A stretch of DNA of 64,000 nucleotides, taken from positions 1,775,501 to 1,839,500 of the forward strand of contig NC_023035.1 of NCBI RefSeq assembly GCF_000507245.1. The letters are read 5' to 3'. The DNA comes from Salinispira pacifica. GTDB lineage: Bacteria > Spirochaetota > Spirochaetia > DSM-27196 > Salinispiraceae. The notes beneath the pieces are model-generated. The model worked only from the letters and a program-made list of their open reading frames with translations, had not been told where the DNA came from and ran no database searches. How positions within the stretch are numbered: position 1 is the first letter of the stretch; every line of letters begins with the position of its first letter. This document shows positions 3,807 through 41,568 of the stretch, piece after piece. Made by a program: the position numbers and the translations under genes.

Positions 3807-3815
3807 CTGAAGACA

Positions 3816-3898
3816 GGAGCCGTATACGAGGTCCGTACGTACGGTTCTGTGAGAGGGACAATAAAGGAGGTCATTCCTCCTTTATTGCCCTACTCGAT
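3816..3898 (+). ncRNA. Group II intron domains V and VI
   Basis: Domain V shows the hallmark paired arms GAGCCGTA and TACGGTTC with the AGC catalytic triad at 3818-3820. Domain VI is a long stem (about 3855-3888, arms around AATAAAGGAGG and CCTCCTTTATT) ending in the intron 3' tail. Together they form the ribozyme core and branch-point region. Confidence 0.8.
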
Positions 3899-39395: not shown

Positions 39396-39599
39396 ATGCT
39401 GTATCTGGGTATTTTTCTATTGGTCTACGGGCTGTTCTGTCTGCTGCTTGCAATATTCAAGTTCCCGTTCCTGTGGAATATCAGCAAAATACAGGGCTTT
39501 GTGAAGCTGATGGGCGAGACCGGAACCACCATATTTATCGGTGTATGGGGTGTGGTTGCACTTGGCTTCGGCATCTGGCTGACGTTCTTTCTGGCATAG
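39396..39599 (+). CDS. Small two-segment membrane protein of the ABC-2 operon
   Basis: A 67-residue protein with two hydrophobic segments (residues 2-27 and 45-66) joined by a short charged loop KIQGFVKLMGETG. A clear CGAAGGAG site lies 8 bases before the ATG, which supports real translation. It follows the exporter genes by 69 bases and may be an accessory or an independent small gene. No family is recognised with certainty. Confidence 0.65.
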   Translation: MLYLGIFLLVYGLFCLLLAIFKFPFLWNISKIQGFVKLMGETGTTIFIGVWGVVALGFGIWLTFFLA

Positions 39600-39771
39600 G
39601 CCGGCCAGGAAGCACCCTGCAACCTGTCTCACCACCTCTCCAGCCATTCATGGCGATTTGCCCGCCCTTTATGGATGCATGTGAGAGCAGCAAGCGACGC
39701 TTGCGATCAGCACCGGTCGGGCCGGTTCCTTGTTGCGAGTCCTTCCTATATCAATGCATAAATAAAAAAGA

Positions 39772-39790
39772 TATCACCGTATGGCGATAG
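39772..39790. repeat. Left direct repeat of the islet beside tRNA-fMet
   Basis: TATCACCGTATGGCGATAG, identical at 18 of 19 bases to the hairpin at 40743-40761, and preceded by a similar A run. Together they frame the toxin-antitoxin islet. Confidence 0.75.
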
Positions 39791-39862
39791 GATTTGGTGT
39801 CAGTTTCCTGGTTACAGTTGGTATCTACTTTCCGAGATCTATATCAGATCTTAGGAGCCTAT

Positions 39863-40123
39863 TCACTTATCAGAATAATGGAATCGGCATTGAATGATGG
39901 TGATTGAATCATCATCGTAGGTGTAAACCAATACATCTTTCTTGTTGATATGCCGGGAGAAGTAACCTGAAAGGTCTCCCTTTAATGATTCGGCTCCTTC
40001 TTCCGGCGTTCGTCGTGCTGCCTTTATTAAATTATTAATCTTCTTAAGTGTTTTGCGGTCTTGACTTTGCCAGTACTCATAATCCTCCCATGCCGACTCA
40101 TGCCAGTTGACCCCTCTACTCAT
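39863..40123 (-). CDS. yoeB: Toxin YoeB (Txe family)
   Basis: An 86-residue RelE-fold mRNA interferase toxin that would cleave mRNA on the ribosome. Family marks are WEDYEYWQ at 12-19, LKGDLSGYFSRHIN at 47-60 and the end CRFHY with H82 and Y83; E45 matches the general base E46 of the E. coli protein. The position of catalytic R65 of E. coli YoeB appears to be V64 here, so activity may be reduced. It is translated after its antitoxin with an 8-base overlap. Confidence 0.9.
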   Translation of the reverse strand: MSRGVNWHESAWEDYEYWQSQDRKTLKKINNLIKAARRTPEEGAESLKGDLSGYFSRHINKKDVLVYTYDDDSITIIQCRFHYSDK

Positions 40124-40370
40124 CTAATAGATCTCGCTTGATAACTCTCCCGGCCTTAACATCTTCAACGGCCTTTAACAGGCGGCTAGCGTTCTCAGGT
40201 GTACTAAGCAGGTGGTTGGTGGTTGTCCAGCCATTGTAATCTGCAAGGGACATCACCACTACATCCCGGCCTTCCTTTGAGGTGATGACAGTTTCTGTAG
40301 AGGTATCTACAACGTCATTAATCAATTGCCTGAGATTGTTCCGCGCATCAGTATAGGTTGTAATTCTCAT
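40116..40370 (-). CDS. yefM: Antitoxin YefM (Phd/YefM family)
   Basis: An 84-residue antitoxin. The N-terminal DNA-binding domain has the family start TYTDARNNLRQLINDVV and the strand EGRDVVVMSLADYNGW; the C-terminal tail (residues 55-84) wraps the toxin. It represses its own operon together with YoeB. GGAGG lies 6 bases before the ATG. Confidence 0.92.
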   Translation of the reverse strand: MRITTYTDARNNLRQLINDVVDTSTETVITSKEGRDVVVMSLADYNGWTTTNHLLSTPENASRLLKAVEDVKAGRVIKRDLLDE

Positions 40371-40443
40371 GACATCCTCCTATCACAATATACTTCATGT
40401 TCAGGATTCTGTACAGATTTCTGGGTAGAATGTTTCCAAGTAA

Positions 40444-40680
40444 TTATCCAAAATCCTCCAACTCAGCAATACGTTCCATCATTTGCTCGGAGGATAAGTT
40501 GAGGATCTCAGCCGCTCGGGAGATGGAAATCTTCTCATTCTCTACGGTCTTCCTGACCAGACGGCTCAACCGACGGAGTCAAAGCCCCGTTCGGGCATGA
40601 GTAAGAATGCGGCAAAGAGATCCGCTTCTTACTCATCCCTGGTTCTGGTGGATCTTCCAGACCCGATTTCACCGGTTAAG
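40444..40680 (-). pseudogene. Decayed ImmA/IrrE-type metallopeptidase gene fragment
   Basis: Minus-strand pieces in different frames match the C-terminal half of ImmA/IrrE-domain regulators. EADLFAAFLLMPERGF (about 40628-40580) is the family helix EAxxFAxxLLMP; it is preceded by an in-frame TAA (40629-40631) and ends in a TGA. A second frame then gives RLSRLVRKTVENEKISISR and RAAEILNLSSEQMMERI, the usual C-terminus, ending at TAA 40444-40446. The HExxH part is missing. It is a relic, not a working gene, and lies next to the toxin-antitoxin pair. Confidence 0.7.
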
Positions 40681-40732
40681 GGGGTCCGGTATTTCACATA
40701 AATGGGTCCCGAGGGGGTACGGGTGTACAATT

Positions 40733-40769
40733 AAAAAAAGGCTATCACCGTTTGGCGATAGCCTTTTTT
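40733..40769. terminator. Terminator of tRNA-fMet, bidirectional
   Basis: Stem GGCTATC with GATAGCC (40740-40763 overall) between an A run (40733-40739) and a T run (40764-40769). It terminates the leftward tRNA-fMet. Its core is the right-hand direct repeat of the islet. Confidence 0.85.
40743..40761. repeat. Right direct repeat of the islet, inside the tRNA-fMet terminator
   Basis: TATCACCGTTTGGCGATAG; one mismatch to 39772-39790. The two copies are 971 bases apart in the same direction. Confidence 0.75.
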
Positions 40770-40774
40770 CTATT

Positions 40775-40847
40775 TAGCAGGGGCAGGACTCGAACCTGCG
40801 ACCTCCGGGTTATGAGCCCGACGAGCTGCCAACTGCTCTACCCTGCG
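40775..40847 (-). tRNA. Initiator tRNA-fMet (anticodon CAT)
   Basis: A 73-base cloverleaf on the minus strand. The anticodon stem is TCGGG/CCCGG with the three G-C pairs that mark initiators, and the loop is CTCATAA. The acceptor 1-72 position is unpaired (C1 and T72), as required for formylation, although most bacteria have C1-A72. The T arm is GCAGG-TTCGAGT-CCTGC. No CCA is encoded. Confidence 0.95.
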
Positions 40848-40908: not shown

Positions 40909-41568
40909 TTATACATCATCCGATGAGGGGTCCCGGGGAGCGGTAAGGAGATTCAGAAGGGCGATGCTTCCCAGAAGGAGTATCAATAATGAAATATAAC
41001 TGAGGGGCACCGGCAGTACCAGCAGCTGGTTATAGATTATGTGACCGGTGACAACGATGAGGACATAAAATATCCGTTTGTTTCGGCTCGCATTGACGGC
41101 GGCTGCAAAGCCCAGAAATCCTGCGCTCACCATATGCAGGGGCAGGCTGCCCAGCAGAATGATGCTGCTCAGCAGCTCCATCTGACGGATTATATACAGA
41201 TAGGTTTCCATGAGACCGAAGCCCATCCCTACAATGATCCCTGCAAGTACGGTCTGGCGGAAAAGCTGAAGCTTTTCTCCCGCAGGATATGCCAGTTTCA
41301 GCAGCAATATCAGGGTGAAATATTTCAGACTTTCTTCTATAAGAGGGGAGATGAATGTACGGATAATGTGGTGCAGATTCTCCCACGCAAGATCCTTAAT
41401 GCCGCTGAGAATGAAATATGCCAGGATTGTTATGGCAACGGAGGCAAAAAAGTAAAGGAGAATATTCGTCAGGCGCAGCTGCATGCCGGTTGTACGCGTG
41501 AAACCCCGAAAATACACCAGGGAGAACAGAACGAAGGCTGCGGCTGGGAATAAAATTATACCGGCCAT
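40909..41568 (-). CDS. PrsW-family intramembrane protease
   Basis: A 219-residue membrane protein with about seven or eight hydrophobic segments. PrsW-type motifs are present: PLIEESLKY (EExxK) near residue 75, GFGLMETYLY near 117 and LPLHMVSAGFLG near 140, whose Glu and His residues form the glutamic protease site. Known relatives cut anti-sigma factors (Bacillus PrsW), but no such target is near. It starts 2 bases after the hisC stop and is likely co-transcribed. Confidence 0.82.
   Translation of the reverse strand: MAGIILFPAAAFVLFSLVYFRGFTRTTGMQLRLTNILLYFFASVAITILAYFILSGIKDLAWENLHHIIRTFISPLIEESLKYFTLILLLKLAYPAGEKLQLFRQTVLAGIIVGMGFGLMETYLYIIRQMELLSSIILLGSLPLHMVSAGFLGFAAAVNASRNKRIFYVLIVVTGHIIYNQLLVLPVPLSYISLLILLLGSIALLNLLTAPRDPSSDDV

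Follow-up and report, generated by a model that had tools for sequence, protein, structure and literature searches.

The window considered here, that is, the whole 64,000-nucleotide stretch of the Salinispira pacifica genome that was analyzed (contig NC_023035.1, positions 1,775,501 to 1,839,500 of the forward strand), carries a tRNA-fMet (CAU) gene on the minus strand (40775..40847; ARAGORN), the presumed docking gene of a small islet at its 3′ side. The upstream side, with hisC and a prsW-like gene (40909..41568, minus strand; Pfam and locus comparison), is the conserved side of the locus: hisC is present in 11 of 13 relatives' loci that hold tRNA-fMet, and the prsW flank is conserved in part of the relatives. 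Recognizable islet sequence begins ~0.1 kb past the tRNA, and includes the remnants of an ImmA/IrrE gene followed by a yefM-yoeB toxin-antitoxin (TA) pair, all on the minus strand and set between two copies of a terminator hairpin (T1 and T2). No integrase was found in or near the islet, the nearest PF00589 match being more than 0.39 Mb from the window (PF00589 matches of the genome lie at 1.24, 2.24, and 2.44 Mb, and the window at 1.78–1.84 Mb). A copy of the tRNA-fMet 3′ end was not found within 10.7 kb downstream in the window, so that the terminator hairpin is the sole repeated part. Because no tRNA 3′ copy is left and no integrase lies near, we describe the islet as a remnant, not a complete tRNA island. 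Group II intron domains (RF02001 and RF00029) occur elsewhere in the window, at 1842–2009 and 3815–3898 on the plus strand, just downstream of the other tRNA-Met (1624–1696) and its terminator; in another genome (G009, locus L021), a sequence resembling the start of a group II intron lies, as judged by eye, directly behind the tRNA-fMet terminator. Docking of such an intron at the islet was rejected, as the domains are found at those two places and not here.

T1 (40730..40774, minus strand; core at 40743–40761), identified by repeat search and folding, is the intact intrinsic terminator of tRNA-fMet (−25.1 kcal/mol). T2 (39764..39795, minus strand; core at 39772–39790), identified by repeat search, shuffles, and folding, is an eroded second copy of this hairpin that keeps the inner stem only (−8.2 kcal/mol), with a T run after it on the minus strand. 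A repeat search of the window recovers the two as a 32-nt direct repeat (39764–39795 and 40735–40766; 84% identity, spacing 971 bp), within which the 19-bp repeat with one mismatch reported in the preliminary description was confirmed at exactly 39772–39790 and 40743–40761. Two such 19-mer sites arose in none of 100 dinucleotide shuffles of the window, and none of 200 shuffles gave a 19-mer shared, at one mismatch or fewer, by the terminator zone and the ~10 kb around it. A search of the 3,782,798-bp genome for the 18-base core, allowing three mismatches, gives two matches, both exact to the W-degenerate pattern, and no third copy; the reversed-pattern control gave four genome matches at up to three mismatches, so that three-mismatch matches alone would carry little weight. 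The sequence of the tRNA-fMet terminator varies even within the family. An integron attC reading of the hairpins was discarded because the attC core motifs are absent, a judgment made by eye rather than with a model.

The yefM antitoxin gene (40116..40370, minus strand; PF02604, 65.6 bits over a cut-off of 29.8) and the yoeB toxin gene (39863..40123, minus strand; PF06769, 99.1 over 27; TIGR02116, 81.2 over 51.8) are both intact, with yefM first, yoeB second, and an 8-base overlap. The YefM protein scores below the cut-off of the YefM equivalog model NF008499 (63.1 of 121), and the closest solved structure to YoeB is PDB 2a6q (1.3e-22). The closest counterpart of the pair is in Spirochaeta smaragdinae (G404), a member of another family, to which yefM is 91% identical at the nucleotide level; among 392 genomes of the phylum, 20 have a YefM match (S. 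pacifica included), with 92% identity in S. smaragdinae and 45% in the next. Among 80 relatives retained out of 168, the top identity is 61%, and the absence of S. smaragdinae from these marks the list as incomplete. No close carrier was found among mobile genetic elements: YefM has no relative in viral contigs and four in phage records (37–42%), and the 685 YoeB relatives in plasmid records are all below 60%. Relative to S. smaragdinae, dN is 0.048 and dS 0.278 for yefM (dN/dS ~0.17), and dN is 0.030 and dS 0.332 for yoeB (dN/dS ~0.09), third codon positions holding 14 of 23 and 12 of 20 differences, respectively. The genes thus bear a signature of purifying selection, which would have acted since the collapse of their carrier, and the pair is probably still functional as toxin and antidote.

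Between yefM and T1 lies a pseudogene of an XRE-HTH + ImmA/IrrE (RmrA-like) antitoxin (40447..40664, minus strand), recognized by comparison with intact relatives. Only residues 216–245 and 328–369 of a 369-aa intact relative are recognizable, in two frames; the N-terminal ~215 residues, including the HExxH motif, and ~82 internal codons are lost, and a stop and a frameshift are present. The content of the islet proposed in the preliminary description, a yefM-yoeB pair together with a decayed ImmA/IrrE gene between the repeats, therefore holds, as the pair passes the Pfam and TIGR02116 cut-offs and the ImmA gene is reduced to two fragments. Long open HTH + ImmA genes exist in four other genomes (G430, G461, G404, and G590): the gene is full length (369 aa) in G430 and G461, and the match runs without stops over at least 368 residues in G590 and over 363 in one G404 copy. 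The G430 ImmA protein, the one that was scanned, contains HTH_3 and Peptidase_M78 domains and matches the RmrA antitoxin models of the RosmerTA system (best 7.6e-36). What lies downstream of the ImmA gene differs from genome to genome. In G430 it is followed by Phd, a ParE-type toxin, YefM, and a nucleotidyltransferase. One G404 copy precedes a relative of the G430 nucleotidyltransferase, whereas the other precedes YefM-YoeB. In G461 (and by eye in G590), it is followed by a ~174-aa protein that is PIN-like by eye, the G461 protein having no Pfam match. Three neighbors in G461 and G430, other than the G430 ParE-type toxin and its Phd partner, were scanned and gave no match to an RmrT model.

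A DNA search of 394 genomes of the class detects islet DNA in seven (S. pacifica itself [G000], G404, G410, G430, G436, G461, and G590), in five of which, S. pacifica included, tRNA-fMet precedes it on the same strand. The closest relatives compared are three family members of other genera (G001–G003, the last 57% complete), and none has an islet match. The S. smaragdinae copy aligns over 731 bp at 89% identity, and homology ends at window position 39789, which is the edge of T2. In that genome, the first ImmA copy follows tRNA-fMet at ~6 kb and the yefM-yoeB copy at ~12 kb, on the same strand, with genes that by eye look metabolic between the tRNA and both copies. A third, decayed ImmA fragment is also present there (C1:3638368–3638601; 65% identity, internal stops), on the strand of tRNA-fMet and ~27 kb past it. 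The cassette lies ~15 kb past tRNA-fMet in G430 and ~0.6 kb past it in G461, and in G410 a 134-bp piece of yoeB follows tRNA-fMet at ~2.3 kb, beyond genes that by eye resemble an IS66 transposase. The G590 ImmA relative, a close one, is on a 97,958-bp contig on which tRNA-Met was not found, and the G436 contig (6.8 kb) is too short to place the islet DNA relative to tRNA-fMet. A T2-type hairpin was not found at the islets of the six other genomes, in which there are 25 matches, all with three mismatches and none at an islet, and the reversed control gives 22. The 17-base tRNA-fMet 3′ pattern is matched in 96 of the 394 genomes; in none of the nine in which both could be placed are distant ImmA homologs (31–49% identity) near this pattern, these homologs being on other draft contigs or, in G404, more than 2 Mb away. 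The link to the hotspot therefore holds for the close clade only. Within that clade, the comparison supports the view that the islet is horizontally shared DNA at a probable tRNA-fMet integration hotspot.

Several of the related cassettes lie within repeat-flanked stretches. In G430, a 99-bp repeat (93%) encloses ~17.4 kb including the cassette, together with genes that by eye resemble type I restriction-modification systems and a second ImmA-type gene; the repeat consists of copies of the tRNA tail further down, and tRNA nucleotides 30–46 are found again at the far end. G404 has a 49-bp repeat (94%) around ~7.7 kb and a weaker one (148 bp, 78%) around ~10 kb, and G461 has weaker repeats of 37 and 34 bp at 85–86%; in G410 and G590 a direct repeat was not found, short inverted matches being the only ones. 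Decayed pieces of tRNA-fMet lie behind the cassette in G461 (nucleotides ~25–57) and G590 (33–54). In a member of the same order (G536), an 8.5-kb element encodes a 465-aa tyrosine recombinase (PF00589, 42.7 bits) directly behind tRNA-fMet, carries a D5_N gene, and is flanked by exact 44-bp repeats, 42 bases of which come from the tRNA-fMet 3′ part. Islet DNA was not detected in G536. Its element indicates that a recombinase-bearing element does use tRNA-fMet in this order, and that the repeat is the 3′ part of the tRNA, not the terminator. The earlier notion that the terminator itself served as the attachment site is not sustained, given that the repeats and tRNA pieces of relatives are the tRNA 3′ half or tail copies and that the left edge of the islet is a probable deletion joint.

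At their end, the related cassettes have a motif that opens with TGTAACCAGG or similar. Its second arm (CCTGGTTACA or similar) can be seen clearly in three of five copies, namely both G404 copies and that of G430; G590 keeps part of it, and in G461 it is changed. Aligned with the G404, G461, and G430 ends, the S. pacifica islet keeps the first arm and loop of this element-end motif (the TGTAACCAGG... arm; 39789..39821, minus strand) and then runs straight into T2, the partner arm being missing. Because the left edge stops inside the end hairpin, T2 was probably brought adjacent by deletion. The near edge is a cut within ImmA, ~0.1 kb from the tRNA, and the ~65 bp that separate T1 from the ImmA fragment are unplaced. 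From these alignments we infer that both edges are deletion joints; the change in the second arm in G461, which has no T2, counts against this reading.

Directly behind T2 is a possible eroded tRNA-tail unit (39601..39745, minus strand), the best match to a unit model in 39500–40800 (9.8 bits, E 0.015) and the third best over the 64-kb window (E 0.72); it is missed with default filters, and its score by itself is not significant. It is on the expected strand, and its spacing behind T2 is similar to that of units behind other tRNA terminators. T2 is probably the displaced original tail of tRNA-fMet; the argument for its identity as the original terminator is drawn from the position of the unit-like sequence behind it, not from the score of that sequence.

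The units themselves have a regular layout, in which an inverted T-arm is followed by a conserved folded body, a 3′-end copy of the same tRNA, and a terminator of their own; where they are in tandem, the period is ~180–230 bp. In an alignment of 14 units from six genomes, 20 of 28 predicted pairs have compensatory changes. The model finds at least one match in 29 of 41 genomes (S. pacifica included) and 28 matches in the S. pacifica genome at E up to 0.01, six of which built the model; 27 of these are behind a tRNA, singly or in a row, and for the one at 2447808 there is no tRNA in the 2 kb examined. Eight S. pacifica tRNAs bear units (Met, Pro cgg, Leu cag, Leu taa, Asn, Leu gag, Pro ggg, and Val), in tandem in seven cases, and for seven of the eight the 3′ 18-mer of the tRNA matches the DNA behind that tRNA better than the DNA behind any other, tRNA-Val being the exception. 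Unit loci of this genome on C1 are 737203–737813, 1331939–1332251, 1553930–1555207, 2259352–2260223, 2691322–2691912, 3216616–3217505, and 3575548–3575872 (L198–L200, L236, L237, L239, and L240), and L161, L168, L204, L201, and L202 are further unit loci. Among 30 returned unit loci (L222 being from S. pacifica), 26 have a same-strand tRNA within ~140 bp upstream, three lie no more than 175 bp from the end of a contig, and the remaining one is a weak match that overlaps a tRNA. No Rfam family reaches its gathering score over the units at seven loci; a sub-threshold match to rnk_pseudo (E 0.087) overlaps a G308 unit on the other strand. A shorter type (~95–115 bp), with repeats of the tRNA-fMet 3′ end and/or terminator, occurs behind tRNA-fMet at L022 (G007), L146 (G461), and L163 (G448). 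The units may be DNA docking sites or RNAs that pair with the T-arm.

The reading that we favor, with a probability of roughly 0.68, is that an integrative island once docked at the 3′ part of tRNA-fMet and that the islet is what remains of it after its collapse. The island would have been inserted between the tRNA and its original tail (T2 and the unit) by integrase-type recombination within the 3′ region of the tRNA, the tRNA end and the near-identical terminator T1 both coming from the incoming DNA. Whether still complete or already reduced, the island would have carried an XRE-ImmA antitoxin gene of the RosmerTA type, followed by exchangeable cargo, here yefM-yoeB. Later deletions would have taken out the N-terminus of ImmA, a segment within ImmA, and the distal end, so that the end hairpin came to abut T2, and yefM-yoeB alone would have been retained, under purifying selection. 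This scenario starts from observed features, namely the repeat, the common cassette, its recurrent site behind tRNA-fMet, the gutted ImmA gene, and the selection signature, to which it adds a presumed recombinase step and a presumed order of events. Several observations speak against it: the islet has neither an integrase nearby nor a tRNA-fMet 3′ copy within 10.7 kb downstream; G590 has a close ImmA relative on a contig on which tRNA-Met was not found; G590 and G410 gave no direct repeat; genes of metabolic appearance separate tRNA-fMet from both copies in S. smaragdinae; and the ~65 bp next to T1 are unplaced. Of the worn tRNA-fMet element put forward in the preliminary description, the element is supported, through the shared DNA at the hotspot and the G536 element in the same order, and the terminator as its attachment site is not.

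An origin without an integrase at this site, in which T1 and T2 would be consecutive terminators in a tandem array of tRNA tails and yefM-yoeB later replaced the intervening unit by illegitimate recombination, appears rather unlikely, even with so many tandem units behind tRNAs of this genome. By eye, terminators are repeated at tRNA-Pro; units lie behind tRNA-fMet in other genomes; in G007, a 41-bp exact repeat of the tRNA-fMet end and terminator recurs at ~180 bp; and T2 is itself followed by unit-like sequence. Yet a unit or tRNA-tail copy was not found between T1 and T2, and in G430 and G404 similar cassettes at this tRNA are located in stretches bounded by repeats. An array origin and an integrated island both place the islet inside a duplicated tRNA-fMet tail.

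The small size of the islet (~0.9 kb left) and its lack of a mobility gene, along with the G590 contig on which tRNA-Met was not found, would suit a free TA operon captured by homologous or illegitimate recombination and unlinked to tRNA islands; the repeated siting downstream of tRNA-fMet across families and the common end motif make such a capture improbable. Lying past yoeB and reading on the minus strand as a hairpin and T run, T2 could also be an independent terminator, serving yefM-yoeB or an opposing gene and resembling T1 by chance or convergence. This we regard as very improbable: the likeness extends over 19 bases with one mismatch, loop included, and was not reproduced in either set of shuffles; the genome has just two copies; and homology with S. 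smaragdinae, whose islet has no such hairpin, stops exactly where the hairpin starts.

The islet resembles known systems in part. Its TA genes belong to the same families as the YefM-YoeB type II TA system (Phd/YefM antitoxin and Txe/YoeB ribosome-dependent mRNA interferase), with the antitoxin first and overlapping genes; the difference lies in the setting, a tRNA-fMet islet in which the pair follows the remains of an ImmA gene. PMC10440598 describes ImmA antitoxins that are combined with various toxins, among them PIN-like toxins. As in RosmerTA (RmrA, an HTH + ImmA antitoxin, with swapped RmrT toxins), the intact G430 relative matches RmrA and such genes precede varied small toxin-like genes, whereas in the window the RmrA-like gene is destroyed (two fragments) and the cargo is itself a complete TA pair. 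In E. coli, defense islands and satellites at tRNA genes form hotspots, according to PMC10121019. The likeness to these lies in the tRNA-gene site, the variable defense-type cargo, and, in some relatives, the flanking repeats; the differences are that the site is tRNA-fMet in Spirochaetia and that the window copy is without an integrase and without a tRNA repeat.

No description of the islet or of the tail units was found in open-license PMC papers on tRNA-fMet islands, initiator-tRNA elements, tRNA-tail repeats, or TA remnants. We tentatively suggest, as a possibility with somewhat worse than even prospects, that the spirochete tail units, often in tandem behind many tRNAs, form an undescribed class that opens with an inverted T-arm and closes with the 3′ end and terminator of the same tRNA; those at tRNA-fMet would be docking or recombination sites for defense and TA islands, and T1, T2, and the unit-like sequence behind T2 would be the scar of such an event. 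By duplicating tRNA ends and terminators, the units could be how islands dock at tRNA-fMet. For the Spirochaetia, the comparison would make tRNA-fMet a concrete integration hotspot, at which a TA pair appears to have been retained under selection after the collapse of its carrier.
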